64,000 nucleotides of DNA, from the IMG/VR virus record IMGVR_UViG_3300047440_000809, positions 40,564 to 104,563 of that record. The stretch is one strand, 5' to 3'. Within the stretch, counting starts at the first letter, position 1. Each line of letters opens with the position of its first letter. The notes beneath the pieces are model-generated. The model saw only the letters and a program-made list of their open reading frames with translations, had not been told where the DNA came from and ran no database searches. This DNA is from a virus. A program made the translations under genes and the position numbers. Below, one piece after another: positions 10,477 through 39,355 of this stretch.

Positions 10477-10490
10477 TCCTGATATCAGGA
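10477..10490. promoter_or_regulatory. 14-bp perfect palindrome (operator candidate)
   Basis: TCCTGATATCAGGA, the most complete copy of the recurring TGATATCA element, placed directly upstream of TGGCAT and the VWA gene. Confidence 0.5.
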
Positions 10491-10491
10491 C

Positions 10492-10507
10492 TGGCATCAG
10501 ACCTGCA
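10492..10507 (+). promoter_or_regulatory. possible sigma-54-like promoter of VWA gene
   Basis: TGGCATcagacCTGCAA: GG and GC are separated by exactly 10 nt, as in -24/-12 promoters. The predicted start would fall only a few bases before the ATG and inside the apparent ribosome binding site, so it may instead be part of the operator. Confidence 0.3.
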
Positions 10508-10520
10508 AAGGATGGGGACC

Positions 10521-11894
10521 ATGGCACTCGACGCACGAAGCAAGCTGGCAGCTGCAATCATCCGGGTGGTGGGCGTGGACCCCTACAACACCGACGCCAA
10601 CAAGCGCGGGCTGGCTCCGTACTTCGGGGCCATCCTGCGCGGGTTGGTACGGCGCGAGGCCCCCGGGCTCGGCACCATCGGCGTGTCCAAGGTCGGGGTG
10701 CTCTACTGGGACCCCGCCTTCGTGGACAAGACCACCACCGAGGAGCTGTCCGCGGGGCTCATCCACGAGGTCATGCACGTGGCGCTCAAGCACTGCCAGC
10801 GCTTCGAGGACATGGGCGTGGTCGCGGAGGCGACCTCGGACCAGGGTGCCAAGGCGTTCATCGCGAACATGGCGGCCGACCTCGCAATCAACCCGGACGT
10901 CGAGAAGATGGCGGCGCTGCCGAAGGGCGGTCTGTTCCCCAAGGACTTCGACCTGCCGGACGGGCTCGTGATGGAGGAGTATTACCGGCTGCTGCTCAAG
11001 CAGGCCGAGGAGCAACAGCAGCAGGATGGCGGCGGGGGACAGGGCGAAGAGGACGGTGAGGGCGAGGACGGTGAGGGACAAGGGCAAGGCAACAAGCAGG
11101 GCAAGCCCGCGGTCGGGAAGGGCTGGTGCGGATCGTGCGCCGGCCACCCGCTGCCCCAGGAGCCCGCGGCGCAGGGCAAGAAGGACGAGGAGGGACGCAG
11201 CGAGGCCGACATGGAGCGCTTCCGCAAGCAGAGCGCGGAGGCCGTGCGGGAGGCGGCGCAGAAGAACCGGGGGTTCGTGCCGGACTCGCTCAAGGTCTGG
11301 GCCGACCAGATCCTCTCGCCCCCGAAGATCCCGTGGCGGGAGAAGCTGGCGCGCATCGTGCGCGGGGCGGTCGCCTACAAGAGCGGCGCGGTGGACCTCA
11401 CCTGGAAGCGCCCGAGCCGGCGGCAGGCAGGCGTGGGCTACGGCATCGGGCGGCCCATCGTGCCGGCGATGCACGCGCCCGTGCCGGACGTGGCGGTGGT
11501 CGTGGACACGAGCGGGAGTATGGGCGACAGCGACCTCGCGGCGGCCGCGTCCGAGCTGGGCGGCGTGCTCGACGCGGTAGGCGCCAAGGTCACGGTGGTC
11601 GCCTGTGACGCCGAGGTACACGGGCTCCGCGAGTGCAAGACCATCCACGAGGCGGTGGAGCTGTTCGTGGGCGGGGGCGGCACCTCGATGGAGCCGGCGA
11701 TGCAGGCGCTCCTGGAGAAGCGGCCTCAGCCGAGCGTCGTCATCATCTGCACGGACGGACACATCGGGGACGGGTACTTGAAGCACGAGCCGCCCTACAA
11801 GGTGATCTGGTGCGTGGTCGGGGCGGGCGGCAACACGGAGCCGTGCCCCTACGGGGACGTGGTGGTCGTGGACGACAGCGCGGTGCAGTCATGA
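10521..11894 (+). CDS. VWA-domain protein with N-terminal metallopeptidase-like domain
   Basis: 457 aa. The N-terminal domain has HEVMH at residues 82-86, a zinc-peptidase-type HExxH. The centre is a Gln/Gly/Glu-rich linker (about 155-215) with a WCGSC motif. The C-terminal VWA domain has the MIDAS sequence DTSGSM followed by GGGGTSM and CTDGH. This order matches the DUF2201 type of VWA protein that partners MoxR ATPases. The second ATG was chosen because GATGGGG precedes it. Probably works with the 9317-10471 ATPase. Confidence 0.8.
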   Translation: MALDARSKLAAAIIRVVGVDPYNTDANKRGLAPYFGAILRGLVRREAPGLGTIGVSKVGVLYWDPAFVDKTTTEELSAGLIHEVMHVALKHCQRFEDMGVVAEATSDQGAKAFIANMAADLAINPDVEKMAALPKGGLFPKDFDLPDGLVMEEYYRLLLKQAEEQQQQDGGGGQGEEDGEGEDGEGQGQGNKQGKPAVGKGWCGSCAGHPLPQEPAAQGKKDEEGRSEADMERFRKQSAEAVREAAQKNRGFVPDSLKVWADQILSPPKIPWREKLARIVRGAVAYKSGAVDLTWKRPSRRQAGVGYGIGRPIVPAMHAPVPDVAVVVDTSGSMGDSDLAAAASELGGVLDAVGAKVTVVACDAEVHGLRECKTIHEAVELFVGGGGTSMEPAMQALLEKRPQPSVVIICTDGHIGDGYLKHEPPYKVIWCVVGAGGNTEPCPYGDVVVVDDSAVQS

Positions 11895-21468: not shown

Positions 21469-21628
21469 GCAGGAAGCCGCCCAGCCAGATCGTGTCGACA
21501 CCGATCACCGCTGCCGCATCGTCGATAGGCGCGTCGTAGATGTCTACGAAGTCGCTTGCGTAGCCCTTTACGCGTTCCCAGTTCGATGGTGCCGGCGCGG
21601 GGGGCGCCACAGGCGTCTGGCCGATCAT
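21395..21628 (-). CDS. small membrane protein, MIGQTP type
   Basis: 77 aa. Begins MIGQTPVAPPAP, similar to MIGATPQPQP of the 22482-23081 protein. One hydrophobic segment at about 48-66, then a basic tail KRRED. Its end overlaps the convergent GT gene by 74 nt. Probable minor virion or assembly membrane protein. Confidence 0.55.
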   Translation of the reverse strand: MIGQTPVAPPAPAPSNWERVKGYASDFVDIYDAPIDDAAAVIGVDTIWLGGFLLSLKFLLSGLWMLKRREDCPAPRR

Positions 21629-22383
21629 GCGGCCTTTTTCTTGTCGCCACCCTTGAGCATCACGACGAGCACGAGACCGAGCGCGACGGCGCCACCGATC
21701 ATCAGGTACGACTGCTTCACGCGGCCCACGCCGGGGAGCTTGACGGACTTGCCACCGCCGCGGACCTTGTCAGCCACGTTCTGGACGGCATCGGCGGCCG
21801 CGTCCTGTGCCGGTTGCAGGTCGGTCACACCGGGTGGCGGTCCTTGATCGGCGGCAGCGGCCTGCGCGTCAGCGCCAGGGTCCGCGGGGGCCTCGCCGGA
21901 CTTGCTGAACCGGGAGAGCAGGTTCTGCATCACCGCCATGAAAACGGGGATGGCTGCTGCCACGACCGCCGGGGCGATGCCGAGCTGCACGTTCTCGTAG
22001 TAGCCGAGCATCGCCGCGTCCGAGCCGGCGAAGAGTGCCAAGATCGGCCCGTGCGGGAGCTGATGGTTGAGCGTGTGCTTCGTCCAGGACTTCGCCTCGG
22101 CAAGCTCCTGGGCGTTGGGCGTCTTCGACTTGCGCTTGTCCCACGCGAGCTTCACCGCGCGGCGGTGTTCGAGCCTGAGCACGAGACCTTTAATCGGTCG
22201 TGCTGCCTGGTGCGCTAGCCACTGCGTGGGCTTGATGAGCGTCCACTCGACAGGGAAGTAGGCCGCCTTCCCGACGACCTTCGCGCCCTTCTTGATGCCG
22301 TGGCCGGTGGCCTGTACGCCGCTCTTGATCCCTCGCCCGACAGACCGGATCGAGAACCCGAGCGGCGAGTTCGAGACGATCAC
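21625..22383 (-). CDS. putative virion membrane protein with NSPLGF start
   Basis: 252 aa, GTG start. The N-terminus VIVSNSPLGFSI matches VIVNSSLGFNPF of 23093-23440. Then an amphipathic Gly/Lys segment, a hydrophobic segment at about 131-152, a disordered Ala/Pro/Asp linker, a second TM at about 226-245 and a GGDKKKAA tail. The shared start and tail-anchor layout suggest a common role in virion membrane assembly. Confidence 0.6.
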   Translation of the reverse strand: MIVSNSPLGFSIRSVGRGIKSGVQATGHGIKKGAKVVGKAAYFPVEWTLIKPTQWLAHQAARPIKGLVLRLEHRRAVKLAWDKRKSKTPNAQELAEAKSWTKHTLNHQLPHGPILALFAGSDAAMLGYYENVQLGIAPAVVAAAIPVFMAVMQNLLSRFSKSGEAPADPGADAQAAAADQGPPPGVTDLQPAQDAAADAVQNVADKVRGGGKSVKLPGVGRVKQSYLMIGGAVALGLVLVVMLKGGDKKKAA

Positions 22384-22386
22384 CGG

Positions 22387-22467
22387 TTACCGCAGCTTGA
22401 AGCCGATGAAGATGCTCGCGCCCGCGAGGAGCGCGCCGAACAGAATCTTGCCGTAGTCGCCTTGCAT
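22387..22467 (-). CDS. very small membrane protein
   Basis: 26 aa: short polar start MQGDYGK then one hydrophobic helix ending in GFKLR. Preceded by an AAAGG ribosome binding site. It fills the gap between two membrane-protein genes of the same operon. Confidence 0.5.
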   Translation of the reverse strand: MQGDYGKILFGALLAGASIFIGFKLR

Positions 22468-22481
22468 GGGTCGGAACCTTT

Positions 22482-23081
22482 CTAGTCGCCCGAGGACGAC
22501 TTCTTCTTTTTCTTGTGCAGGAGGACGTACCCGCCGATCCCGGCCGCCGCGACGATGCCGCCGATCAGCAGCCAGTGCTGCTTCTTCGGGCCCGGGACTT
22601 CCTGCCCCTCGGAGGCCGCCGACGCGTCCTGCGTGGGGCCGAGGTCGGCCGCGGGCGAGCCGGGCGCCACGGACGCCTGGGGGATCTGCGAGGGCATCGG
22701 GTTCAGGATTGCCTGTTGCTGCGTCAGCTGCGCTTGCGCCTGCGCGGCCTGCGCTGCCGCTGCCGCCTGCTGCGACGCCATGAGCTGTTGCTGAAGCATC
22801 TGGAGACGCGCCGCCGCCCGAGCGTCGTGTCCTGCGCGCCGCTGGAGGTCGAAGCGCTCGCGATCGTAGGCGCGCTGTGCGTCCCGCGCGCGGTTGATCG
22901 CGGCGAAGTCGATGACCGGACGGTAGATGGTGCGGACCGGGCCGGGCGTGTAGACCGTCCGCGGCTGCGCGTAGACCGGACGGGGAGGTGCGAAGGCGGG
23001 GCGCATGGGAATTGGTGCGCGATAGGCCGGGGGGCGATACGCCGAGCGCCAGGGTTGTGGTTGCGGGGTGGCTCCAATCAT
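22482..23081 (-). CDS. putative virion protein, P/Q-rich with C-terminal TM
   Basis: 199 aa. Pro/Arg/Tyr-rich N-terminus, a helical Gln/Ala stretch (about 95-135), a Pro-rich linker, a TM at about 169-186 (WLLIGGIVAAAGIGGYVLL), then KKKKKSSSGD. Tail-anchored topology like several neighbours. Confidence 0.6.
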   Translation of the reverse strand: MIGATPQPQPWRSAYRPPAYRAPIPMRPAFAPPRPVYAQPRTVYTPGPVRTIYRPVIDFAAINRARDAQRAYDRERFDLQRRAGHDARAAARLQMLQQQLMASQQAAAAAQAAQAQAQLTQQQAILNPMPSQIPQASVAPGSPAADLGPTQDASAASEGQEVPGPKKQHWLLIGGIVAAAGIGGYVLLHKKKKKSSSGD

Positions 23082-23092
23082 CGGAAGGTCTC

Positions 23093-23440
23093 CTACTTTT
23101 TGAGCATGAAGAGGACGACGAGCGCCGCGCCGCCGATCAGCGCGAGGGGAAGCAGGTTGCCCTTCTTGACGGGGGCCATCGTCGCGGTGCCGTCGTCGTT
23201 CGCGACCTCATCACCCGTGGCGGGCGGTCCGGGCGGCATCTGGCCCGGCTGAGGCTGCGTGAACTGCTGGGCGTAATTGGCGTACGAGCCTGCACGGCCG
23301 CCGTATGCCTGACCAGCGGCAATCGCAGCCTGCTGCACCCTCGGATTCTGGATCGCCTTCGCGATGGCCCGGGTGCCGACGACGTGGGCGTGCACGATCG
23401 CGCGGAACGGGTTGAAGCCGAGCGACGAATTGACGATCAC
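23093..23440 (-). CDS. putative virion membrane protein with NSSLGF start
   Basis: 115 aa, GTG start placed 7 nt after a TAGGAT -10, so probably leaderless. VIVNSSLGFNPFRAI at the N-terminus, an Ala/Gln-rich middle, Pro-rich linker, and a C-terminal TM (LLPLALIGGAALVVLFML) ending KK. Paralogous in design to 21625-22383. Confidence 0.6.
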   Translation of the reverse strand: MIVNSSLGFNPFRAIVHAHVVGTRAIAKAIQNPRVQQAAIAAGQAYGGRAGSYANYAQQFTQPQPGQMPPGPPATGDEVANDDGTATMAPVKKGNLLPLALIGGAALVVLFMLKK

Positions 23441-23447
23441 GAAGACT

Positions 23448-23477
23448 ATCCTACGGGCGACACGGCACACCCGTCAA
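23448..23477 (-). promoter_or_regulatory. promoter, leaderless type
   Basis: Minus strand TTGACG, 18 bp, TAGGAT, 7 nt, GTG start of the 23093-23440 gene. Drives the minus-strand membrane-protein operon. Confidence 0.65.
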
Positions 23478-23487
23478 ATCGCCCGAT

Positions 23488-23517
23488 TTGCCTCGGTCGC
23501 ACTCGCCGTGGCATTCT
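23488..23517 (+). promoter_or_regulatory. promoter, leaderless type
   Basis: TTGCCT, 18 bp, CATTCT, 7 nt, GTG start of the transglutaminase-like gene. Back to back with the promoter at 23448-23477. Confidence 0.55.
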
Positions 23518-23524
23518 GTACTTC

Positions 23525-24106
23525 GTGCTCCGCGACGCAACGGCACCGATGCTTCGTGCTCACCGCGTCGGCACGCTCGATGACCGCGTGAAGCTGCTCA
23601 CGCGGATGGTGTGGCTAGGCGCGCAGGCGGTAGACCCCCGGGAACCTCCCGTCGGGGGGCTACGTGATCCGAAGATGCGCGAGATCGGCCTGCGCGCCAC
23701 GCAGAGCTGTCCCGAGCGGAACGACATGTGCGAACTGGAAGCGATCTACACGTTCGTGACGATGACCGCGCCGGACGGTCACCCAAACGTGCGCTACACC
23801 GGCGACATCGCGCTCAAGGACACGTACCAGACGGCGTACCGGACCTTGCAGTATCGCGGCGGCGACTGTGACGACCACGCCGTGCTCAGCGCCGTGCTCG
23901 CGATGGAGAACGGCTTCCAGACGCGCTTCCGGATCACGTCGAACACCGGCGCGAGCTGGGACCACATCTACTGCATGGCGGGCTACCCGAAGAACGGCCC
24001 CACGCGCTGGATCGCGCTCGACACCACGCTCGGCCCGCGGCGCTTCGCAAAGCAGCCGCCCGAGGCCAAGCATCGCGATTTCAACGTCAGCGAAGTCACA
24101 CGATGA
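23525..24106 (+). CDS. transglutaminase-like papain-fold protein
   Basis: 193 aa. The triad context is visible: GGDCDDHAVL (Cys), SWDHIYCM (His), RWIALDTTLG (Asp). In bacteria this fold includes peptidoglycan or isopeptide-cleaving Cys enzymes. Among virion-type membrane proteins it could help the particle or genome pass the cell wall; that role is inference. Start chosen at the GTG after the promoter. Confidence 0.7.
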   Translation: MLRDATAPMLRAHRVGTLDDRVKLLTRMVWLGAQAVDPREPPVGGLRDPKMREIGLRATQSCPERNDMCELEAIYTFVTMTAPDGHPNVRYTGDIALKDTYQTAYRTLQYRGGDCDDHAVLSAVLAMENGFQTRFRITSNTGASWDHIYCMAGYPKNGPTRWIALDTTLGPRRFAKQPPEAKHRDFNVSEVTR

Positions 24107-24315
24107 GTCGTGCCGGTGACACGACAGCGCTTTCGCTCCCGGACGGTGGCGTCATGGAGATCCCGTTGCCCGGGAGCAAGGGGCGCTTCGCCGTGCGTGC
24201 ACCTTCGCTGCTCGGGCAAGACGGCAGCTCGCGCCTTCCGATCGTCATTGGCATCGTGGTCGGCGTCGCTGTCGGTGTCGCGGCAACCGCCTGGTACATG
24301 AGCCGGCGGCGCTGA
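24103..24315 (+). CDS. small tail-anchored membrane protein
   Basis: 70 aa. Polar Gly/Ser-rich N-terminus, TM at about 45-64 (LPIVIGIVVGVAVGVAATAW), tail MSRRR. ATGA and TGATG overlaps on either side. Probable virion membrane protein. Confidence 0.6.
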   Translation: MSRAGDTTALSLPDGGVMEIPLPGSKGRFAVRAPSLLGQDGSSRLPIVIGIVVGVAVGVAATAWYMSRRR

Positions 24316-24512
24316 TGCTCGGCGGACGGCCAGCACCTCCCGCGCGGCCACGGGAAGGGTTCGAGGTGTTCTGGATGCGGTTAGGACGTATCGTCATGAA
24401 GCAGTGCCAGCAGAAGGCCCACTGCGACGTCGTCATCACGCTCAAGGACGGATCGGTGCAGCTCGTGCGCGTGAACGAGTCGTTCCTACCGACCACGCTG
24501 CCCGACGTCTGA
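24315..24512 (+). CDS. small hypothetical protein
   Basis: 65 aa, TGATG-coupled. Pro/Arg-rich start, one Cys pair (QCQQKAHC), C-terminal strand VVITLKDGSVQLVRV. Function unknown. Confidence 0.5.
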   Translation: MLGGRPAPPARPREGFEVFWMRLGRIVMKQCQQKAHCDVVITLKDGSVQLVRVNESFLPTTLPDV

Positions 24513-24515
24513 GAT

Positions 24516-24545
24516 TTGCCGGGTCGGCGGGCCCGGTGTTAGCCT
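24516..24545 (+). promoter_or_regulatory. promoter, leaderless type
   Basis: TTGCCG, 18 bp, TAGCCT, 7 nt, GTG start of the 24553 gene. Confidence 0.6.
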
Positions 24546-24552
24546 GGTATCC

Positions 24553-25413
24553 GTGCTCGCGCAGGACGCACCGACGCAGTCGCTCTTTCCTCATCGCAAG
24601 CAGTGCGAGTGGATCGACCAGGGTCATGGGCTGTCCGCGCGCGTCTGTGACGATGGCGAAGTGCTCATGTGGCACGACGCCGAGACGCGCGAGACCTGGA
24701 TTCACGGCGAAACCCCGCCGAATAAGTGGCAGGTCTTTTTCCGCCGTCACCACAACTTCAACGGCTTCGGAGCGACGGAAGCGGCGGTCGGCGTGTGCCC
24801 TCCCCGACCGCATATCGCGCCGCGCCCGTCCTCGACCATTCAGCGCCTGCAAGCGGCAATCGTCGGGCTCGGGAAACGCGTCGGCGACACCATGCTGCGC
24901 ATCGCCTCGGACGGGCTCGTCGGTCCCCACACCGTCAAGGCGACCAATCGCGCGCTCTACATGTACGCCGGGGGCGGCGCAGCGCCGGCGCAGTTCACGA
25001 CGGGCGCGCTCACGCACGCCCAAGTCGTGGCATTCGCGCCGCAGCTCACTTCGATCGTGCAGCGTGCGCCCTACCCCGAGTCGCTGCACTCGACCAACGC
25101 CGCGACCTATTCTCCACCACCGCCAACCGCGCCGGCCTTGCCGTCGCAAGGAGCCTCGACGATGCCGTACTACCAGCCGGGACCCGCGTACTACCCGCCT
25201 CCGCCACCGCCGGGCTACGGGCCTGCCTACTACGGACCCCAGCGAGTCGGGCGTGGTGGGCTCCCCACGGACCAGGCGTCGGTCGACGTGCGTGCCTTCA
25301 TCCCGGCGCAGTACGAACACGTGCGGATCAATCCGGGCACGGTCGCGACGGTGATCGGCCTCGTCGTGATCGTGGCGCTGGTGTTGGACCGGAAGAAAAA
25401 GAAGGGAGACTGA
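24553..25413 (+). CDS. peptidoglycan-binding-like, C-tail-anchored protein
   Basis: 286 aa, GTG start directly after its promoter. Order: a beta-rich N-terminal domain (1-85), a helical module at about 95-140 with DGLVGPHTVKATNRAL, matching the conserved part of peptidoglycan-binding repeats, a Pro/Tyr-rich linker, then a TM at about 262-278 and tail RKKKKGD. The 63196-63744 protein has DGAIGPATVKATNYAF and the same tail anchor, so the two are paralogues. Probably bridges virion membrane and cell wall. Confidence 0.6.
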   Translation: MLAQDAPTQSLFPHRKQCEWIDQGHGLSARVCDDGEVLMWHDAETRETWIHGETPPNKWQVFFRRHHNFNGFGATEAAVGVCPPRPHIAPRPSSTIQRLQAAIVGLGKRVGDTMLRIASDGLVGPHTVKATNRALYMYAGGGAAPAQFTTGALTHAQVVAFAPQLTSIVQRAPYPESLHSTNAATYSPPPPTAPALPSQGASTMPYYQPGPAYYPPPPPPGYGPAYYGPQRVGRGGLPTDQASVDVRAFIPAQYEHVRINPGTVATVIGLVVIVALVLDRKKKKGD

Positions 25414-27982: not shown

Positions 27983-28498
27983 ATGGCTCGTCACAGATTT
28001 CGTGGCTTCGGAGAAGGCGACAGCCACGCTGCCATCGCAGGACCGCTGATCGGCGGTGGTGCGACGCAGATCGGCATCATGCTGGCGCACCTTCACGCCA
28101 GAAAGAACCCCGCAGCGCTCCGGCACGCTGGTGTGCACGGCGCGGTGGTGGGGTTGCTCGTGGGCGGTGGCTTGGCCATGACGAAGTCCTATCGTCAGAC
28201 CGGCTACTCGGCTCTCGCGACGGTCGCCATCATGACCATCCCTCGCATCCTGGAGGGATTCATGGGCCTCGGCCACCGCGAAGAGACGGCCGCGATGCAC
28301 GGCCTCGGCATCATCACGCCGCAGGCGCTCCAGGGCGCGGGTGAAGAGCCCGTCGTGCAGCTCCTCGACTCCAACGAGATGAACGGCGCCCTCGGCGTTC
28401 ACGTCGCTGAGGAGTTGCACGGAGCGGGCGGCAACGCGAGCGAGTACGTGGAGATGATGGGTTCTGGCTTCGGCCACAACTTCCTCCAGGCCGCCTGA
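27983..28498 (+). CDS. putative virion membrane protein
   Basis: 171 aa. Hydrophobic segments at about 18-34, 47-63 and 72-88 within Gly/Ala-rich sequence, then a soluble acidic C-terminal half. Directly upstream of the terminator and the 28659 capsid candidate. Confidence 0.55.
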   Translation: MARHRFRGFGEGDSHAAIAGPLIGGGATQIGIMLAHLHARKNPAALRHAGVHGAVVGLLVGGGLAMTKSYRQTGYSALATVAIMTIPRILEGFMGLGHREETAAMHGLGIITPQALQGAGEEPVVQLLDSNEMNGALGVHVAEELHGAGGNASEYVEMMGSGFGHNFLQAA

Positions 28499-28502
28499 TC
28501 GA

Positions 28503-28538
28503 AGCGGCGCTCGGGGGCTACCTCGGGCGCCGCTTTTC
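28503..28538 (+). terminator. rho-independent terminator
   Basis: AGCGGCGC (28503-28510) pairs with GCGCCGCT (28527-28534), followed by TTTT. Ends the 27123-28498 unit. Confidence 0.7.
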
Positions 28539-28575: not shown

Positions 28576-28658
28576 GGTGACAACGCGGGGAACACACCAT
28601 TCAGCTTCGAGACCACACCGGCCCAGCCGACCCTCGGGGCAGAAACGAGACAGCTACC

Positions 28659-29447
28659 ATGTCGAATCCCGGCACCCTGACCGTTCGCGTCCGCGGCGTT
28701 CCGTTCCCGATCGAGTTCGCGGACTGGACCCACGACCGCCTCTACCACACCGTCGAGTTCGAAGGGACCGACGCCCAGATCATCCAGACGTTCATCGGAG
28801 CGGCTGGCTCTCCGATCCCGGGCGGGCAGCGCGTCCTGACGATCGTCGACACCAACATCCCGCGCTCGGGTGACACCGGGTTGCAGGAGGGTTGGGAGAT
28901 GCTGATCTACAGCATCCAGATCCAGGTCACGCGCGAGATGGCGCGGAACGCGGCTCAGCAGAGCTTCGCTCTCCAGGACCAGACCAACGTCGGGGGGATG
29001 ACCCAGTTCTCCCGGAACGTGCACCTCGGCGGGTACGACCCGACCAACACGGCCGGCGGCGTGCTGTTCGACTTCATGCGGAAGACCTACCACCGCTTCC
29101 AGGTGAACCAGAAGGTTCAGTCCGAGGGGCCGGTGGAGAAGTACCCGCAGGGGTCGGGCATCTCGGTGTTCGGCACCACCACCAACCTGGAGAACGCCAA
29201 CAACGGTCTCCCGTCGCCCCGCGACCAGTCGGCGTTCGTCCTGCCGATCTGGCTGCGGCCGAACATCGCCTACGTGGGCATCCTCGCCCCCCAGGCGGCG
29301 CTCGGCATCGGCGGCGCCTCGGCGGCGGTGGGCCCGCCCTTCGCGACGGTCGAGGGGTACTTCGACTGGTCGGGCATCCCGGCGACGAACCTCGGGTTCG
29401 ACGTGCGGGAGACCCTGGAGGGTCTGCTGAAGCGCCCGGTCGTCTGA
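28659..29447 (+). CDS. major capsid protein candidate
   Basis: 262 aa, insulated by terminators on both sides, which suggests strong single-gene expression. Beta-rich throughout: WEMLIYSIQIQV around residue 88, then FVLPIWLRPNIAYVGIL and ATVEGYFDW near the end. The ending resembles the smaller 29570-30061 protein. No HK97-fold hallmark is visible; a jelly-roll fold is my inference. Confidence 0.5.
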   Translation: MSNPGTLTVRVRGVPFPIEFADWTHDRLYHTVEFEGTDAQIIQTFIGAAGSPIPGGQRVLTIVDTNIPRSGDTGLQEGWEMLIYSIQIQVTREMARNAAQQSFALQDQTNVGGMTQFSRNVHLGGYDPTNTAGGVLFDFMRKTYHRFQVNQKVQSEGPVEKYPQGSGISVFGTTTNLENANNGLPSPRDQSAFVLPIWLRPNIAYVGILAPQAALGIGGASAAVGPPFATVEGYFDWSGIPATNLGFDVRETLEGLLKRPVV

Positions 29448-29472
29448 TCGACGCAGCAACCAACTAGCAAGA

Positions 29473-29508
29473 GGGCGCGGTGGCTTCGGCTGCCGCGCCC
29501 TTTTTCTT
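29473..29508 (+). terminator. rho-independent terminator
   Basis: GGGCGCGG (29473-29480) pairs with CCGCGCCC (29493-29500), followed by TTTTTCTTT. Strong terminator after the capsid candidate. Confidence 0.8.
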
Positions 29509-29533
29509 TGCTCCGACGGCGCACGCCGCGGAT

Positions 29534-29563
29534 TTGCCTTCCACCCCCACCCCGTCCTATCAT
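29534..29563 (+). promoter_or_regulatory. promoter, leaderless type
   Basis: TTGCCT, 18 bp, TATCAT, 6 nt, ATG of the 29570 gene. Confidence 0.6.
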
Positions 29564-29569
29564 CTCCTC

Positions 29570-30061
29570 ATGAGTCTTTCTCCCGGCCTCGAAGCGATGC
29601 TCAGTCAGCTCGGCCCGTATCTCAAGGGCTTCATGGACAAGATCGAGCCGCTGCTGAACCAGCCGGTCGTTCGCGTGCCGTACTCGCTGACGCTCGCGGA
29701 GAGCACCGTGATCCCGCCGGGTCAGCAGGGCTTCGTTCTCTCGAACAACGACTTCAACAACAACCTGGAGTGGCCGATCGAGATCCACAACGTGAAGTTC
29801 TCGCAGGACGTCGCGCACAGCTTCCGCGACTGGCGCGTGAACTTCCAGGACCAGATCGTCAACCAGCCGATGCAGAAGGCGAACAGCGGCTCGATGGTCG
29901 CCGAGCTGGTCGAGGACAACACAGGCATGTGGCAGTGGCAGTACCCGTGGGTCGTGCGCCCGAAAGGCGGTGCGATTCTCATCGTCGCCACCAACCTCGA
30001 CACCGTCAACCCCATCACGGTCGACCTGAGCCTCAACGGCTACCTGATGATCCCGCGCTGA
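29570..30061 (+). CDS. candidate jelly-roll virion protein
   Basis: 163 aa. After a helical N-terminus (1-30), the rest is strands: EWPIEIHNVKFSQDV, a W-rich turn (MWQWQYPWVVRP), then ILIVATNLDTVNPITVDLSL ending GYLMIPR. Strand spacing suits a single jelly-roll. Pairing with 28659-29447 recalls viruses that use two small capsid proteins, but this is unproven. Confidence 0.5.
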   Translation: MSLSPGLEAMLSQLGPYLKGFMDKIEPLLNQPVVRVPYSLTLAESTVIPPGQQGFVLSNNDFNNNLEWPIEIHNVKFSQDVAHSFRDWRVNFQDQIVNQPMQKANSGSMVAELVEDNTGMWQWQYPWVVRPKGGAILIVATNLDTVNPITVDLSLNGYLMIPR

Positions 30062-30074: not shown

Positions 30075-30554
30075 ATGCGCAGCTTCGGCCAGATGCTCGG
30101 TCGCGGCCACGGTGGTGGCGGCGCAGACCTGGGCAACCCGAGCCCCGGGATCATCCCCGGCGTTCGCACGACGCCCAACGTCTACGAGCCGGCGCCGAAT
30201 GCGGAGCCCGTCGGTGCCGACACCGGTGCGCCGCCGCGCACGCAGTTCTTCAGCAGGCTCGTGGTACCGGCCTCGACCACCAAGGACAACGCCACGCTGC
30301 TCGTCCTGGGAACCCCCGAAAACCGCGTCGCGCTCATCACGGCGCCGGCGGTGGGCTTCACGGTCTACATTGGCGACTCGGGTGTCTCGCCCGACAACGG
30401 CGCGCCGCTCACCCCCGGTGTCCCCTACGAGGCCATCCTGCCGGGGCTCCAGCCGCTCTACGCTGTGACGGACGCGCCTGTGTACCTTCGTGTGGGCGTG
30501 CAGGTCGCGATCGTGCTGGCGGCAGAGCGACAGCGGAAAACGGACGGCCTGTGA
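30075..30554 (+). CDS. putative minor virion protein
   Basis: 159 aa. Gly-rich, disordered N-terminus (1-55), then a beta domain (RLVVPASTTKDNATLLVLG, VALITAPAVGFTVYIGD). The beta part could be a spike or vertex domain. No family recognised. Confidence 0.5.
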   Translation: MRSFGQMLGRGHGGGGADLGNPSPGIIPGVRTTPNVYEPAPNAEPVGADTGAPPRTQFFSRLVVPASTTKDNATLLVLGTPENRVALITAPAVGFTVYIGDSGVSPDNGAPLTPGVPYEAILPGLQPLYAVTDAPVYLRVGVQVAIVLAAERQRKTDGL

Positions 30555-30555
30555 A

Positions 30556-31125
30556 GTGCTGCCCCTTGCGGTGGTCGCGCTCACCGGGCTCGTCATCGCC
30601 GCAGTCGGCCTGACGCACGGCCCGAACCTCAGTCACGTCGCCGCCGGTCTCGGGCTGCCGCTCCTGTACGTGCAGCAGGCGGCCAAGTGGGCGCGCCGGC
30701 GCGGGCTGCCGCTCGAATGGGTGCTGTCGACCATCCTCGTGGAGAGCGGCGGCAAGCCGAACGTGCGTGGTGACGCTGACGGCCGCTCGGTGGGGCTCAT
30801 GCAGGTGAACGTCATGACGCCAGCGCACGTGCGAGACGGCGTAACAGTCGCCTTGATGCTCGACCCGGCCAAGAACATCGAGTGGGGCACCAAGTACCTG
30901 AAGCAGTTCCGCGACGACGTACTGACGGCGCTCGGGGGGCGCAACCCGCCTATCCCCCTCGACCAGATCGTGCGTCTCGCCTACAAGGGCCCCACGACGG
31001 TGGAGGACGCGCTTAGACGTGGGCAGAACCCAGCAAACATCTCGTGGGCACCGGAGGCGCTAGCGCGGTGGAGGAACGCTCTGGCACGCGTCAGCGCTTT
31101 GACCCGCGGCCGATTGACGGCGTAG
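30556..31125 (+). CDS. membrane-anchored SLT lytic transglycosylase
   Basis: 189 aa, GTG start. N-terminal hydrophobic segment (about 1-22), then the SLT/goose-lysozyme-like core: WVLSTILVESGG with the catalytic Glu, then GRSVGLMQVNVMT and NIEWGTKYLKQF. Cleaves peptidoglycan by family. In a virion gene cluster it probably serves genome entry rather than lysis. Confidence 0.8.
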   Translation: MLPLAVVALTGLVIAAVGLTHGPNLSHVAAGLGLPLLYVQQAAKWARRRGLPLEWVLSTILVESGGKPNVRGDADGRSVGLMQVNVMTPAHVRDGVTVALMLDPAKNIEWGTKYLKQFRDDVLTALGGRNPPIPLDQIVRLAYKGPTTVEDALRRGQNPANISWAPEALARWRNALARVSALTRGRLTA

Positions 31126-31659: not shown

Positions 31660-32121
31660 ATGCTCAGCCGCCTGTACGTGGTGCAGATGCCCGAGGAGAC
31701 CCCGACGACTCCCCTCGACATCTTGGTGCAGTCGGCTCCCGGATCGGTCGACGCGCCCGCGCTCCCCGGCGAGGGGAAGTATTACGAGTGGCGCGGGCGG
31801 CCACTGCGCCTCGAATCGCTAGCGGCAGACGGCGTCGCGGGCGGCTTCGTGCCGCGCCTGCGCCTCGGGTTCGAGGTGTCGATCACGGCGTACGTGGGGG
31901 CGGTATCGGCGAACCTCCCCGGCGTGCAGCTCTCGGAGTCGCTCGCGGGAGACCTCTCGTCCACGGACAGCGGCCCGTCGATCTCGATCCCGCTGCTCTC
32001 CGACCCGGGCGGCGAGCCCGCGATCCGGTTGGTGGGAAGCGCCGACACCGCGGGGCTCTTCTACCTCGTGTCGCTCCAGTGCCCCGAGGCGAAGGAAGAC
32101 AACGCGCCGCGGGGGAGCTGA
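31660..32121 (+). CDS. putative beta-rich virion protein
   Basis: 153 aa, mostly strands (YYEWRGRPLRLESLA, RLGFEVSITAYVGAV, GLFYLVSLQC). No membrane segment. Placed among virion candidates with its own promoter. Confidence 0.5.
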   Translation: MLSRLYVVQMPEETPTTPLDILVQSAPGSVDAPALPGEGKYYEWRGRPLRLESLAADGVAGGFVPRLRLGFEVSITAYVGAVSANLPGVQLSESLAGDLSSTDSGPSISIPLLSDPGGEPAIRLVGSADTAGLFYLVSLQCPEAKEDNAPRGS

Positions 32122-32124: not shown

Positions 32125-32277
32125 ATGAAGCTCTGCTGGGCGGTCGAGCAAGTGCGTGGAGGAAGGTGGAAGCGCACCGTGCGCATGCCGACGAAGGCGT
32201 TGGCCGATACCACGGCACGGAGCCTCGAACGCAAGTGGGGTTCAACCACGCGCGTGAAGAACGTGTGCAAGCGATGA
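32125..32277 (+). CDS. small basic protein
   Basis: 50 aa, Arg/Lys-rich with one Trp-containing strand (WAVEQVRGGRWKRTVRM), then a helix and a basic end. ATGA overlap with the next gene. Confidence 0.45.
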   Translation: MKLCWAVEQVRGGRWKRTVRMPTKALADTTARSLERKWGSTTRVKNVCKR

Positions 32278-32732
32278 TCTCCCGCTCCAACCTCGGCGCC
32301 GGCCACGCGCTCGTTTACGTCGCGCCGGACGACAACCCGAACTCCGGGGGTGGGCCCATCCGCCGCGCCCCCGGCTCGAACGTCGTCTACGCACACGCCG
32401 GCAGCCGCGTGGAGCGCTCGCCGCTCCTGGTCGTGAACGAGGCGGAGCCCGGCGCGGGCTGGCCCGAAGACCTCTCCGCCACGCGCATGTTCCTGCCCGA
32501 CGGGCGCCTCGTGCCGCAGACCTCCGCCGTCGTGGACATGTTCCGCGGCGCCGGCGAGCCCGCCACCGTGGTCTACGCGCGGCCGCCCGTTACCGGGCTG
32601 CGAGCGCTCGTGCCGGCAATCGGCATGTTCGCGGGCGCGGCCGCCGGCTACAAGTTCTCGACGCGCCGCCCGGGGTGGGGCACGCTCGGCGGTGCAGTCG
32701 TGGGGGGCATCCTCGGGCTGATCTTCAGGTAG
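32274..32732 (+). CDS. putative virion protein with C-terminal TM hairpin
   Basis: 152 aa. Soluble N-terminal 105 residues, then two Gly/Ala-rich hydrophobic segments (LVPAIGMFAGAAAGY and LGGAVVGGILGLIF) flanking a basic turn. Probable membrane protein of the particle. Confidence 0.55.
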   Translation: MISRSNLGAGHALVYVAPDDNPNSGGGPIRRAPGSNVVYAHAGSRVERSPLLVVNEAEPGAGWPEDLSATRMFLPDGRLVPQTSAVVDMFRGAGEPATVVYARPPVTGLRALVPAIGMFAGAAAGYKFSTRRPGWGTLGGAVVGGILGLIFR

Positions 32733-32745
32733 GAGCCACGCGCCC

Positions 32746-33405
32746 GTGATCGACAAGGACGGCCGGCGCCTCATCGCGATTCGCAACGGCCTCGGCCGCA
32801 CGACGACGGCGCCCGAGGACGCGCAGCTCCTAGCGCGGATGCAGACGAACCGGCAGGCGCGCGCCGTGCTCGGCGTCGTAGCGCAGTACCTGCGCCGGGG
32901 CTACGAGGTCGCGCAGACCGTGCCGTCCTTCATCTCGCCGATCGACGGGACCAAGCTGGCGGCAGAGGCGATGCGAGGCAATCTCGACTCCGATAACCGC
33001 TGGTCACAGAAGGTCTACGCCGCCATTCCGGACGACGACGCCCCGATCAGCGACTTGAACCGCAAGAAGGTCACGATCGCCCTGACGCAGGCGCGTGGCA
33101 CGCTTGCGCTCGTGAGCAGCAGCGCTGAGGACTTGAATCGCGGCCTGTTCGGCTCGCTCTCGGATCTGCTCGCGGAGCACTTGTTGCCCTCATGGGCCCA
33201 GCCGAACCCGAAGGCCCGCGACCTCGCGCTCAAGATCGGCATCGGTGTGGCCGTGCTCGTGGGGCTTATCGTCGCCGGCAAGCTCGTACACACCATCGTC
33301 CTCGGCCGATCGACGGCGCTCGGTGAGGCCGAGGCCGCTGTGATGGCGCTCGCGAACGCACAGCGGCGAAAACACCATGCCCGGTCCGTGATCTCCGTGT
33401 CGTAG
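32746..33405 (+). CDS. putative virion membrane protein
   Basis: 219 aa, GTG start. Helical soluble domain (1-160), one TM at about 164-184 (IGIGVAVLVGLIVAGKLVHTI), then a helical basic tail. No enzyme motif. Confidence 0.55.
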   Translation: MIDKDGRRLIAIRNGLGRTTTAPEDAQLLARMQTNRQARAVLGVVAQYLRRGYEVAQTVPSFISPIDGTKLAAEAMRGNLDSDNRWSQKVYAAIPDDDAPISDLNRKKVTIALTQARGTLALVSSSAEDLNRGLFGSLSDLLAEHLLPSWAQPNPKARDLALKIGIGVAVLVGLIVAGKLVHTIVLGRSTALGEAEAAVMALANAQRRKHHARSVISVS

Positions 33406-33629: not shown

Positions 33630-35714
33630 ATGGGCGACGGACCACTGCCGGGCTCCGAGGGTGGCTACGCGGGCCCTACCGTACCGGGTGGCGGTAGCGG
33701 GTCACAGGGGGCTCAGGGCACGCAAGGTGCCCAAGGCGCTCAGGGAAGCGGCGGACAAGGCGCTCAGGGCCCGCAAGGAGCTACCGGCGTCCAAGGGTCG
33801 CAGGGCGCGCAAGGATTCCAGGGCGGTGGGTTTCAAGGGGCGCAGGGCGCCACCGGCGTGCAGGGGTTCCAAGGTGCCCAGGGCTTCCAGGGCGGGGGCT
33901 TCCAAGGCGCGCAGGGCTCCACGGGCACGCAAGGTCCCGGTGGTGGCGCACAGGGCGCGCAGGGTGCGACCGGCACGCAAGGGTTCCAAGGCGCGCAGGG
34001 GTTCCAGGGTGGTGGTTTTCAGGGGGCGCAGGGCTTCCAGGGCGCTGACGGCACGCAGGGGTTCCAAGGCGCGACTGGTGCGGGTGCTCAGGGAGCGCAA
34101 GGCGCACAGGGAGCGGACGGCACTGCGGGTGCTCAGGGAGCACAAGGTGCAGCGGGTGTCGACGGTGCTCAAGGTGCCCAGGGCGCGACGGGAAACACCG
34201 GCGCCACCGGCGCGACGGGCGCGCAAGGATTCCAGGGTGCCACCGGAACGACCGGGACGCAGGGGTTCCAAGGCGCAACTGGGGTAACAGGCGCACAGGG
34301 TTCGCAGGGCGCGTCGGGCGCCGACGGTGCACAAGGAGCACAAGGTGCAACCGGTGTGACGGGAGCCCAGGGTGCACAAGGCTCGACGGGCGTGACCGGT
34401 GCGCAAGGAGCCCAAGGGGCTTCCGGTGTCGACGGAGCGCAGGGTGCACAAGGAGCCACCGGTGTGACCGGCGCTCAAGGAGCCACCGGCACCACTGGCG
34501 CTCAAGGAGCGCAAGGCGCTCAAGGCGCAACGGGAGTGACTGGAGCGCAGGGCGCACAGGGCGCGACCGGCACCGGCACGCAAGGCGCACAAGGTGGAAC
34601 TGGAGCGCAAGGTGGCACGGGCGCTCAGGGCTTCCAGGGTGGTTCGGGTGGAGGTGGTGCGAGCACGCTGGGATTCTTCGCGCTCGGCAACACCACGCAG
34701 AACACCTCCACGACGCTCGCCGGCAGCGCCATTTCGTTCAACGTCGCCGGCGGCGTGTCGATGGGCTTCTCGAACTCGTCCATCCAGGTCTCGTCGCCAC
34801 CTGTGTCGTCGCTGTCGGGCGTGAGCGGGATCGGCTTCACCACCAACGGCAGCACGATCTCCGTCGGCGGTCCACAGGTTACTGACTTCGAGCCGGAGCC
34901 ACTGCTCGCCACGACGTCATGGGCGCCGGGCGCGGGGTCCTGGTACGTCGAGCCCTTCGCGGTACCGAACGCCTTCAGCGGACAGCTCATAAACGCTGTC
35001 GCGAGCTTCGCCAACGTGGGCTCTGCCGGGATCTTCGCACCGGTCGCGTCGTCTCGAATCAACTCGGGAAGCCGATCCGCGAGCTGCATCTTCAACATGT
35101 CCGCTGCGGTGTACTCGCGTGGTGCTGGAGGCAATAGCACCCGGATCGAATCGGTGTGGTCGAACTCATTCTCGTTCGGTGGGGCGTGCTCGCTGTCTGC
35201 GGCAACGGCCGGCGCCACCACCATCACGGTCACCTACGCCGGCACGCTGTCCTACATCACCCAGATGAACTCGGGGGGCTACACGACCACGTCGTTCTCC
35301 GAGTCGGGGTCACGTACAAGCGCCGCCTCCACGATGTCCACATCGGCCGTCACCAGCGCGCTCACCGACATCTACAACCTGCTCTCGGGCCCGACGCTCG
35401 TGCCGATCCCGTTCAACACCACGCTCAACCCCGGCAACTACTACTTCGCCTTTGCGTTCAACACCAGCTCGACGTCAGCAGGGACCGACGGGCAGGTTCT
35501 CGCCATGTCGGCATTCGTGGGCATCAGCGCCCCGAATCAGTTTGCGACGAGAAACCTCGGAAAGTCTGTGAGCACATCGAACCAACCGATCTTCGCGGGA
35601 GCGGGCGTGTTCTCTGTGTCATCGGCGTCCCCACCCGTGTCCATGGCCTTTGTCGATTTGCGCTCGTACGCCGCCGCGAAGGTCTACTTCAACGTGCAGG
35701 CTTCTACGATTTGA
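33630..35714 (+). CDS. collagen-like fibre/spike protein
   Basis: 694 aa. N-terminal [16 protein letters not shown] (an anchor motif shared with 38033-39355), then about 100 Gly-X-Y triplets (residues about 24-345), mostly GAQ, GFQ and GAT, forming a trimeric collagen-like stalk, then a beta-rich C-terminal region (345-694) that probably binds receptor. Such triplets are known in phage tail and spike fibres. The stalk is rich in Gln and Thr, which could be glycosylation sites for the GTs here. Confidence 0.8.
33700..34645 (+). repeat. tandem short repeats encoding Gly-X-Gln triplets
   Basis: Degenerate 9- and 18-bp units of the type GGCGCRCAA and GGNGCNCAG repeated throughout. Prone to slippage and recombination, so fibre length may vary among isolates. 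Confidence 0.8.
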
Positions 35715-35725
35715 CGGACTGATCG

Positions 35726-36673
35726 GTGTCCTTCGTCGTAGTTCAGATCGTCCAGGCGAAGGTCGGTGCAACGGCATCGTCGGTGGCGGTGTCGGCTTTC
35801 GTGACGAAGGGCAACGTCCTGGTCGCCTACGCGAATGGCGACAGCGTCGTATCTATCGCCTTCTCCGATTCACTGAACGGCTCCTGGGGAGCCAACTTAG
35901 ATTCGTTCTCGAATCCACACGAAGGATCGTCCAACTACATCCACGCGACTGGCAGACTTGCCGGTACGACGCTCGGAGGAGCGCTTCGACTGACGGCCAC
36001 GTACGGCGCCTCCACGGGAGCCGGCTCTGTCACGCTCATGGAGTTCGCGAACGTCGGAGCGACAGACGGGCACACGGGGCAGGCCCAGCTCAGCTTCGAC
36101 GGTACTCCGACAGATGCAGTCACGTCTGGCACCGTATCGCCCACGAAGTTTCCGTCAGTCGTCATCGCCCCCGCTGCATGCAACCAGGCAACCGAGGGCG
36201 GTGGGACCGTATCAAGAGTTGCCGGAACAGGATTCACGCAGCAGTTCGACGGCACGGACAACCTGGGTACGCGTGTCGAGACGAAGCGGACGCTCGCCGC
36301 GGGCGCTGTGGGGGGCACGTGGACTGCATCGGGCACTGGGGCGAACAACAACGACTACGACTCATTCGTCATCGTCCTGAACGAGATTCCGACGATCACG
36401 GTGCAGCCGGCCACACAGCGCGTCCGTGAAGGACTGACTGCGACGTTCAACATCACAGCGACGGCTGCGGCGGGCTCGCTCCACTACCAGTGGAAGCAGA
36501 ACGGTTCAAACGTCGGCACGGATAGCAGCTCCTACACGACGCCTGCCAACACGATCGCCAACAACCTCGACGCGTACACCTGCGTGGTCACCGACGACAA
36601 CGGTAGCGCAACAAGCCAGACCGCATATCTGTTAGTCTACGAGGTACCCGGGATTGCCTGGGTGCGTGCATGA
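35726..36673 (+). CDS. Ig-domain virion surface protein
   Basis: 315 aa, GTG start. Two beta domains; the C-terminal one (about 218-305) reads as an Ig-like fold: TVQPATQRVREGLTATFNI, LHYQWKQNGSNV, then DAYTCVVTDDNG. Ig domains commonly decorate phage particles and bind carbohydrate or host surfaces. ATGA overlap with a GT gene. Confidence 0.65.
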   Translation: MSFVVVQIVQAKVGATASSVAVSAFVTKGNVLVAYANGDSVVSIAFSDSLNGSWGANLDSFSNPHEGSSNYIHATGRLAGTTLGGALRLTATYGASTGAGSVTLMEFANVGATDGHTGQAQLSFDGTPTDAVTSGTVSPTKFPSVVIAPAACNQATEGGGTVSRVAGTGFTQQFDGTDNLGTRVETKRTLAAGAVGGTWTASGTGANNNDYDSFVIVLNEIPTITVQPATQRVREGLTATFNITATAAAGSLHYQWKQNGSNVGTDSSSYTTPANTIANNLDAYTCVVTDDNGSATSQTAYLLVYEVPGIAWVRA

Positions 36674-37401
36674 AACCCGAACTCGTCGTACAGGACTTAG
36701 GCGGTGCGCACAACGCCGACCTCGACGCCACGAGAGCGCGGCTCATTCGTGGAGGGTCGTGGAAGAACCAGCGCATCGTCGTGATCCTACCGTCGGCCGA
36801 CCTCATACCGGCGCGCGTCGCGCTCTCGCACTGGAATCTCGCGTTCCCGCCGAACAATGGCGTCGTCAGGATTCTCGCGCAGGGGATGGAGGTCGGCGAC
36901 GCCTACACGCGCGCGGTCGAGGGCGTTCTGGGCGATCCGAACTTGTCCCAGTGGGAGTACATCCTCACGATCGAGCATGACAACTGCCCGCCACCCGACG
37001 GCGTCATCAAGCTCGTCGAGCGCATGGAGGAGCACCCCGAGCTGTCGTGTGTCGGCGGGCTCTACTTCACGAAGGGGCCGGGCGGCATCGCACAGATTTG
37101 GGGCGACGCGTCCGACCCGATGGTCAACTTCAGGCCACAGCTACCGGACACGAGCGGTGGGCTGGTCGAGTGCCACGGCACGGGCATGGGCTTCAACCTG
37201 TGGCGCCTGTCGATGTTCAAGGACTCGAAGCTGCGAAGGCCGTGGTTCAAGACGCAGACGAAGGATGGCGTCGCGACGCAAGACCTGTACGCATGGAGCG
37301 ACTTTAGGAAGAACGGGTACCGCTGCGCCGTCGACTGCTCCGTCAAGGTCGGCCACTTCGACTTCAAGGGGGACTTCGGGATCCCCGAGTTCATGTGGTA
37401 G
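36670..37401 (+). CDS. GT2-like glycosyltransferase
   Basis: 243 aa. VVILPSADLIPARVALSHW near the start, YILTIEHDNCPPPDG with a DXD-like HDN, GGLYFTKG and HGTGMGFNLW. A GT-A-type enzyme is likely. Its place between fibre genes suggests it glycosylates virion proteins; this is inference. Confidence 0.6.
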   Translation: MKPELVVQDLGGAHNADLDATRARLIRGGSWKNQRIVVILPSADLIPARVALSHWNLAFPPNNGVVRILAQGMEVGDAYTRAVEGVLGDPNLSQWEYILTIEHDNCPPPDGVIKLVERMEEHPELSCVGGLYFTKGPGGIAQIWGDASDPMVNFRPQLPDTSGGLVECHGTGMGFNLWRLSMFKDSKLRRPWFKTQTKDGVATQDLYAWSDFRKNGYRCAVDCSVKVGHFDFKGDFGIPEFMW

Positions 37402-37417
37402 GAGAGAGGAGAAGCGC

Positions 37418-37975
37418 ATGACCGCCGCGAACGTCGCACCCCCGGCCGCTGCACTCGCCAAGCCGCTGAAGCTCGACCTCGGCTGTGGCATCAGGAAGGT
37501 GTCGCCCGACTTCACCGGCGTGGACATTCACAAGTTCGACGGCGTCGACGTGGAGTGTGATCTCGCCAAGCAGTGGCCGTGGGAGGACAACAGCGTCGAG
37601 GAGGTGCACTGCTCGCATCTGATCGAGCACCTTGGACCCGAGGATCGCATCCACTTCGTCAACGAGCTGTATCGCGTGTTGAAGCCTGGTGGAAAGGCCA
37701 ACATCGCCTGCCCGGACTACTCCTCGGGGCGTGCCTACGGCGACCTCACGCACAAGTGGCCGCCGATCTCGTCCTTCTGGTTCTACTACCTGTCGGCCGA
37801 CTGGCGTTCGACAAACGCGCCGCACAACGACAAGTACACCTGCAACTTCTCGGTGACCGGCGGCTACATCCTCCGCCAGGATGTCATCGTCCGGAACCAG
37901 CAGTACCAGGAGTTCGCGATCAACAACTTCAAGGACGTCTGCCAGGACATCACGGCCATCTTCACGAAGCTGTAG
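37418..37975 (+). CDS. class I SAM-dependent methyltransferase
   Basis: 185 aa, ribosome binding site AGGAGAAG. LDLGCGIRKVSP (SAM-binding motif I), HCSHLIEHLG and LYRVLKPGGKANI, the standard Methyltransf_11-type order. Substrate unknown; with the neighbouring GT it may modify a sugar or fibre. Confidence 0.75.
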   Translation: MTAANVAPPAAALAKPLKLDLGCGIRKVSPDFTGVDIHKFDGVDVECDLAKQWPWEDNSVEEVHCSHLIEHLGPEDRIHFVNELYRVLKPGGKANIACPDYSSGRAYGDLTHKWPPISSFWFYYLSADWRSTNAPHNDKYTCNFSVTGGYILRQDVIVRNQQYQEFAINNFKDVCQDITAIFTKL

Positions 37976-37994
37976 GGGGACGATCTCGGCGGAT

Positions 37995-38024
37995 TTGGGG
38001 GCGTCACTCCCCCCGGTGTAAGAT
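37995..38024 (+). promoter_or_regulatory. promoter, leaderless type
   Basis: TTGGGG, 18 bp, TAAGAT, 8 nt, ATG of the second collagen-like gene. Confidence 0.65.
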
Positions 38025-38032
38025 GGCACGAC

Positions 38033-39355
38033 ATGGGTGATGGACCTCTGCCCGGCGCCGAAGGCGGTGGCTTCCTAGGACCCACCGCGGTGCCGAGCGG
38101 CGGCGCGCAGGGCACGCAGGGCCCACAGGGCGCGCAAGGTTCGAGCGGAGGCCCACAGGGGGCTCAGGGCAGGCAAGGCGCACAAGGGTCGCAGGGGGCG
38201 CAGGGCGCGCGTGGCGTCCAGGGGTCACAGGGGTCGACGGGGGCCGGGACGCAAGGGGCTCAGGGCGACACCGGCGCGCAGGGGGCCCAGGGTGCCTCTG
38301 CCGGTAGCACGCTCGCGGCGCTCTACACGTTCGGGCTCGGCGACGTCCCCACCGTCGACAACCGGCTCGTGGGGGCCATCTCGAACATCTACTTCGACAC
38401 CGACGGCCGCGTGGTCATCGAGACCAACACCGGCCACGAGGGGAACACCGATCCATTCGTGCGGCTCATTCACGACGTCCTCGCCCAGGGCGAGCAGACC
38501 TTCAACAACCAGGAGATCCACTACCTCCCTGCCGCGGGGTTGAACGGGCTCGCGGCCACGACGCCGACGGGGTTCCGCACCGACTACGACCTCGTGGACT
38601 CGGGCGGCTCGACGTTCCACTTCGCGCACGAGCGCTACGAGAGTGGCAACGTGGTCATGGGCAACCCGTTCACACCTGACCCGTTCCCCGTGCCATCAGG
38701 CGCGCCGTACATCGCGCACGAGGTCTACCTGCTTCAGCCCGACGGCTCGACGGAGACGCTGCACCAGTGGAATGCTCTCGGCACGTACACGCAGAACGCC
38801 TACGTGCCGAACGGCGGCGTGCCAGAGACGCTCGCTACCATCATGACGCTCATGCACGCGAACGCGGGAGGCGGCGTGCTCCAGGTCGGCAGCGGCGTCG
38901 GATGGACCGTCAACTGGACGTCGGGGACGCTGCCCGTGCTCGGACGGCTGAACGTAATCCTCGACAACAACGGCTTCCTGACGGAGGAGGCCCATTGGCT
39001 CTTCCAGGCGCAGCGGTCCGGCGCTGGCGTCGTCGACATCGCACGGATGGACCCCAACCTGGGCATCGACAGCCTCCTCGGGTTGTTCACGTTCAGCAGT
39101 GACGGAACCGCCGCGAGCGCTGCCGCAGCCGGAGCCGCCAAGATGATCTACAACGACACGCGGAAGACGGCACAGCTCAGCGTCGACACCGGTGGCTATG
39201 TTGATCTCTTGACCGGATCTGCTGTCGCCAACGGCGGTGTGACAGTGACTTTCGGCGCCGCCACAGCGCCGGCAGGCAGCAGCGCAACGCCTACTCGGTG
39301 GCTCAGCGTGCCGGACGGCGCCGGTGGTACCTTCACAATGGCCAGCTTCAGTTGA
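38033..39355 (+). CDS. second collagen-like fibre protein
   Basis: 440 aa. Starts [17 protein letters not shown] like 33630-35714, then a shorter Gly-X-Y region (residues about 23-92, many GAQ), then a beta-rich C-terminal domain of about 345 residues. The shared N-terminus and different tips suggest two fibres attached at the same virion site. Confidence 0.75.
   Translation: MGDGPLPGAEGGGFLGPTAVPSGGAQGTQGPQGAQGSSGGPQGAQGRQGAQGSQGAQGARGVQGSQGSTGAGTQGAQGDTGAQGAQGASAGSTLAALYTFGLGDVPTVDNRLVGAISNIYFDTDGRVVIETNTGHEGNTDPFVRLIHDVLAQGEQTFNNQEIHYLPAAGLNGLAATTPTGFRTDYDLVDSGGSTFHFAHERYESGNVVMGNPFTPDPFPVPSGAPYIAHEVYLLQPDGSTETLHQWNALGTYTQNAYVPNGGVPETLATIMTLMHANAGGGVLQVGSGVGWTVNWTSGTLPVLGRLNVILDNNGFLTEEAHWLFQAQRSGAGVVDIARMDPNLGIDSLLGLFTFSSDGTAASAAAAGAAKMIYNDTRKTAQLSVDTGGYVDLLTGSAVANGGVTVTFGAATAPAGSSATPTRWLSVPDGAGGTFTMASFS
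38101..38310 (+). repeat. tandem short repeats encoding Gly-X-Y triplets
   Basis: Same kind of GGCGCRCAG units as 33700-34645, far fewer copies. Confidence 0.7.

Follow-up and report, generated by a model that had tools for sequence, protein, structure and literature searches.

The phage PRD1 carries, within the block of its virion genes, a transglycosylase anchored by a transmembrane (TM) helix, together with small membrane proteins, and, to our knowledge, the genomes of the known tailless membrane phages are small, much below 90-120 kb. Further points of comparison are provided by the sphaerolipoviruses, which have genomes of 16-31 kb (PMC5332951), and by HCIV-1, in which the penton protein VP9 is a single beta-barrel that follows an N-terminal alpha-helix (PMC6414509). 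The stretch analysed here (the window) makes up the final 64 kb of a virus record of IMG/VR (G000; 104,563 bp), and the original prediction had proposed that two adjacent small beta proteins, of 262 and 163 aa, form a pair of single jelly-roll major capsid proteins (MCPs) known from the Sphaerolipoviridae-like lineage. The reading that we come to favour, by somewhat more than an even chance, is that these proteins come from a lineage of large dsDNA phages that has not been described before, the virions of which probably lack a tail and contain a membrane; the MCP would be the 262-aa protein, and the 163-aa protein would be a further capsid protein with a single beta-sandwich (small MCP or penton).

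Both open reading frames (28659-29447 and 29570-30061) exist as predicted, with fitting coding statistics, and seven further viral contigs have conserved counterparts of them. These relatives, which are of 89-122 kb (G001-G007), were recovered from IMG/VR, six of them directly through the 262-aa protein and the seventh (96 kb) through the 163-aa protein, and both proteins are found in all eight genomes, including the divergent G004 and G006. As G001 spans both ends of G000, the genome is either circular or circularly permuted, and little of it is missing from G000. In the relatives, the missing part occupies 5-14 kb between the same genes and codes, as read by eye, for small membrane proteins, a sigma-like factor, and a peptidase-like protein. 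Given that IMG/VR lists all of the contigs as linear, the absences of genes are read with that limit, though G001 bridges the ends of G000, and the genes of G004 were under-called by the simple gene caller, so that tblastn was used for this genome and the cluster table was not relied on alone. Neither protein has a homologue among 50,697 phage records or in 84,980 bacterial and archaeal genomes, and no description of the lineage was found in the open-access literature searched, which is not proof of its absence.

The 262-aa protein shows the highest conservation of any protein of the lineage, with identities of 88, 87, 88, 69, 86, and 69% to its counterparts in G001-G006, respectively; the values for PolA are 63, 67, 65, 25, and 65% in G001-G005, and PolA is absent from G006. 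In codon bias, the gene ranks at or near the top of each genome (3/82, 1/82, 7/62, 3/43, 1/6, 2/69, and 4/55 in G000-G006, with few genes called in G004). A side observation concerns the two most distant of these genomes, G004 and G006 (L050-L059), which retain the capsid block, largely without recognisable counterparts of the replication genes of G000. In G004, these genes, including the polymerase and the helicase, match at only 25-28%, and in G006, which has neither the polymerase nor the helicase of G000, they are mostly undetected, which suggests that the replication module has been exchanged in both.

All of the features between 27983 and 33405 described here lie on the plus strand. The 262-aa gene is, as had been claimed, enclosed by strong terminators, that is, an upstream hairpin at 28501-28536 with a 16-bp stem, a 4-nt loop, and a UUUU tract (-32.5 kcal/mol, z = -7.1), and a downstream hairpin at 29469-29504 (z = -5.3). 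A terminator-like hairpin follows the stop codon in seven of the eight genomes (that of G006 was read by eye), and in the eighth, G001, where an intron interrupts the gene, a hairpin sits after the second exon. Given terminators on both sides, the 262-aa gene constitutes its own transcription unit.

Between the upstream terminator and the start codon, the leader forms a further RNA hairpin (28607-28640), which has a covarying outer stem, an invariant internal loop of GACCANAC/ACC, and an invariant CGGC/GCCG inner stem, with a core that reads GACCANACCGGC-nnn-GCCGACC inside the covarying stem. Changes on both sides of a pair were counted 11 times, against 4.4 in shuffles, and they involve four of the six outer pairs. 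With a covariance model, this hairpin is found exactly once in each of seven genomes, in every case immediately before the 262-aa gene, and it is not found in G007. When the pattern was searched across all of IMG/VR, 35 contigs were returned and the full structure was present only in six relatives; the other 29 contigs, which do not match the full structure, were set aside as chance matches. No Rfam family matches the hairpin above its gathering score, and the weak Rfam matches in the region, all below their gathering scores, were rejected.

The genes in which group I introns reside are typically conserved and essential. In G001, the 262-aa gene carries such an intron near its 3' end (L002 10766-11070; RF00028, 83.4 bits, E = 3.1e-21), and the excision of these 305 nt restores the conserved C-terminus TLEGLLRRPVV, so that the intron is identified both by the match to the Rfam covariance model and by the exact joining of the exons. 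In some relatives, the 262-aa gene is directly followed by a minus-strand ORF (L002 11171-12481, L003 11199-11630, and L005 10767-11462), which by eye resembles a LAGLIDADG homing endonuclease, and a Pfam scan of these ORFs returned no match.

The top conservation, the codon bias, the terminator of its own, the unique leader hairpin, and the intron in G001 together make it very likely, by inference, that the 262-aa protein is the MCP. This protein has no match in Pfam, PHROG, or the PDB, and AlphaFold2, run with seven homologues, produced no usable model (pLDDT 29.4). This leaves room for the reading that the 262-aa protein is some other abundant component of the virion, such as a spike, a membrane-associated shell, or a scaffold, and that the true MCP is another protein of the block, in which several other small proteins are also conserved. 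This is decidedly unlikely, however, as the 262-aa protein clearly tops all of these in conservation, has a near-top codon bias, and is the sole bearer of the leader RNA.

The 163-aa gene, for its part, has its own promoter, as predicted, in which TTGCCT-N18-TATCAT (29534-29563) ends 6 nt before the ATG, an arrangement expected to yield a leaderless mRNA. A similar -10 element precedes the gene in G001, G002, G003, and G005 (L002, L016, L004, and L019, respectively). Promoters of this kind are far commoner than chance, given that in 33 of 879 genes a -10 ends 6-7 nt ahead of the start codon, against 0.27 per position elsewhere, and they form a leaderless sigma70-type class, TTG[AC]..-N16-19-TAnnnT, that precedes many small virion or membrane genes in several genomes. 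In the window, the genes at 23440-23093 (minus), 24553, 26946-26719 (minus), 29570, 31135, 31660, and 33448 have such promoters.

The AlphaFold2 model of the 163-aa protein (pLDDT 69.9, pTM 0.56) consists of an N-terminal helix (residues 5-29), followed by about eight strands. In the PDB, Foldseek relates the model to the capsid proteins of a nodavirus, a circovirus, BFDV, CCMV, BMV, and PLRV, and to that of the cyanophage Pam1, all of them weak matches (E 0.02-0.13, TM-score up to 0.46), and no match in the PDB has an E-value below 0.012. Among the predicted structures of viral proteins, the best match (E = 9e-4) is an uncharacterised protein of a Dickeya phage. Some of the Foldseek matches are tail proteins. 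The claim of a single jelly-roll fold is weakly supported for the 163-aa protein, for which this medium-confidence model suggests a jelly-roll-like sandwich, and the predicted capsid role of the pair, which by inference is well supported for the 262-aa protein, is reasonably supported for the 163-aa protein as a second capsid protein, either a small MCP or a penton.

The relationship that had been seen between the two proteins was not supported. An hhalign comparison of the profiles of the two families gave a probability of 0.1%, which lends no support to a shared C-terminal strand pattern, and the supposed common GY ending is contradicted by the 262-aa protein, which ends in LEGLLKRPVV; only a short W.RP string is common to both by eye. 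Their adjacency applies to G000 and, overall, to six of the eight genomes, but in G002 and G005 the genes are about 25-39 kb apart, and a fixed operon of the two was rejected on account of this separation and of the terminator that lies between them. Neither did hhalign find a relationship between the 163-aa and 159-aa families.

These results bear on the proposal of a Sphaerolipoviridae-like pair, in which a small (163 aa) and a large (262 aa) MCP, each a vertical single jelly roll, would form heterodimeric capsomers. Such a pair would account for two small proteins encoded side by side in most of the genomes, for the jelly-roll-like model of the 163-aa protein, and for the combination of the HerA-type ATPase, present in five of the eight genomes, with a lytic transglycosylase (SLT) and TM proteins. 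Nevertheless, it is unlikely, given that an hmmsearch of the profiles of both families against the PDB returned nothing at E <= 10, though VP16 and VP17 of P23-77 (3ZN4/3ZMN) are present there, that the families have no similarity to each other and are unlinked in two relatives, that the genomes, at 89-122 kb, are 3-7 times larger than those of the sphaerolipoviruses, and that the N-terminal helix of the 163-aa protein suits a penton equally well. The lineage may work like the Sphaerolipoviridae, but membership in this family is not supported.

The genes around the two candidates fit a block of virion genes. A 171-aa hydrophobic protein (27983-28498), possibly a membrane or assembly protein, co-occurs with the 262-aa gene, and a 159-aa beta-looking protein (30075-30554), possibly a decoration or spike, travels with the 163-aa gene. 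The next gene (30556-31125) encodes an SLT (PF01464, 8.7e-11) with an N-terminal TM helix, which is likely to be the entry enzyme of the virion and is also found near the 163-aa gene in the relatives. A conserved 153-aa protein with a leaderless promoter (31660-32121) and two small proteins with hydrophobic segments (32274-33405) belong to the same block as the 163-aa gene. Further upstream, at 21625-25413, there are small proteins that end in a TM helix and a Lys/Arg tail (22383-21625, 23006-22482, and 23440-23093 on the minus strand; 24154-24315 and 24553-25413 on the plus strand). The 163-, 159-, 153-, and 171-aa proteins have no match in Pfam or PHROG, and the same searches, with the 262-aa protein included, revealed no double jelly-roll MCP of the Tectiviridae, Corticoviridae, or Autolykiviridae.

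Other genes were noted in passing. Collagen-like Gly-X-Y proteins of up to 2191 aa (window 33630-39355; L008 248-6823), which beyond the type of repeat are not conserved between relatives, are probably receptor-binding fibres. A Gln/Arg-rich coiled-coil protein of 727 aa (L009 414-2597) is matched in part by proteins of five relatives but by no Pfam family. A pair formed by an AAA ATPase and a DUF2201/VWA protein (window 9317-11894) is found in five of the six relatives checked (not in G004; G007 is outside this count) and, distantly, in jumbo tailed phages.

To establish the kind of virus, PHROGs were used to scan every ORF of G000 that reaches 140 aa, and Pfam to scan the majority of them, which brought out PolA, helicases, a primase-like protein, a thymidylate kinase, glycosyltransferases, a GH25 endolysin, the SLT, an integrase, and a HerA-like ATPase. 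Among these ORFs, the scans detected no terminase, portal, HK97 MCP, or tail tube, for which divergent homologues are possible, and the profiles of Terminase_6N (PF03237) and Phage_portal (PF04860) had no match in the eight contigs, while their controls matched. The sole "terminase" match of PHROG in G000 is the HerA-like ATPase, and the fibre and tail matches come from the collagen-like and Ig-like proteins.

A tailed phage so divergent that the HK97 fold of its 262-aa MCP lies beyond detection, with the 163-aa protein as a decoration or tail protein, would be consistent with the tail proteins among the Foldseek matches and with the AAA/DUF2201 pair, the collagen-like fibres, and the PolA module, all of which recall large tailed phages. 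It seems quite unlikely, in that the searches detected no terminase, portal, tube, or tape-measure protein, and that those large proteins which are conserved across most of the genomes are assigned otherwise, except for the coiled-coil protein of about 690-730 aa that has no Pfam match. The simplest reading would be a particle that has no tail and contains a membrane. The two genes very probably encode capsid proteins of a hitherto undescribed group of large viruses of bacteria, with genomes of about 90-120 kb in which no genes for the assembly of tailed phages were detected.

The HerA/DUF87-type ATPase, which has 600 aa in the copy at L008 7664-9466 (minus), has counterparts only in G001 (cut at the end of the contig), G002, G005, and G007, which gives five of the eight genomes, and it was not found in G003, G004, or G006; a HerA-like gene is also present in a record labelled Caudoviricetes. 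Together with the conserved tyrosine recombinase, this ATPase might also suggest that the element is not a virus but a plasmid-like replicon, with the proteins forming a surface structure. This is very improbable, as the element encodes a GH25 endolysin, an SLT, and fibre-like proteins, the contigs come from a virus collection, and the 262-aa protein has no match among 72,556 plasmids.

If the MCP of a tailless phage is indeed the 262-aa protein, its abundant synthesis would be directed by a separate transcript bounded by terminators, the translation or stability of which would be set by the leader hairpin, perhaps through the binding of the coat protein, and the 163-aa gene and several of its neighbours would be transcribed separately as leaderless mRNAs. 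The 262-aa protein would then tile a shell over a vesicle that carries the small transmembrane proteins, with the 163-aa protein, anchored by its N-terminal helix, either at the vertices or alternating with the 262-aa protein. At entry, the SLT enzyme would open the cell wall, and the HerA-type ATPase would package the DNA where it is present. The missing ATPase of G003, G004, and G006 is the weakest point of this mechanism.

The full picture, that is, tailless, membrane-containing bacterial viruses of about 100 kb with an MCP of a new type (262 aa) and a dedicated mRNA hairpin, the neighbouring virion genes being read from leaderless mRNAs, falls somewhat short of an even chance. If the viruses are tailless, the 262-aa protein would provide a concrete marker for finding and imaging members of the lineage, and the unique leader RNA, together with the leaderless late promoters, offers a testable case of how the dosage of capsid proteins is set.

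When set against the known systems, the lineage shares traits with each of them. It resembles the large tailed phages (Caudoviricetes) in its PolA, AAA/DUF2201 pair, collagen-like fibres, and endolysin, but differs in that no terminase, portal, HK97 MCP, or tail machinery was detected. With the Tectiviridae and other double jelly-roll phages (PRD1, PM2), it shares the TM-anchored transglycosylase in the virion block and the small membrane proteins, whereas no double jelly-roll MCP was recognised here and the genome is much larger. The Sphaerolipoviridae and Helvetiavirae (P23-77, SH1, HCIV-1, HHIV-2) likewise have two small non-enzymatic capsid proteins, of which candidates are found here, a HerA/FtsK-type ATPase, seen here in five of the eight genomes, and many small TM proteins, and no tail genes were detected here, but there is no detectable sequence similarity to them, their genomes are far smaller, and the pair is not always linked here. 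The 163-aa model resembles VP9 of HCIV-1 in layout only, a medium-confidence model being compared with a published description. If these viruses of 90-120 kb are tailless, they would take the design of the tailless membrane phages to dimensions that are otherwise found in viruses of eukaryotes, several times larger than the known tailless phages and nearing the scale of iridovirus capsids.
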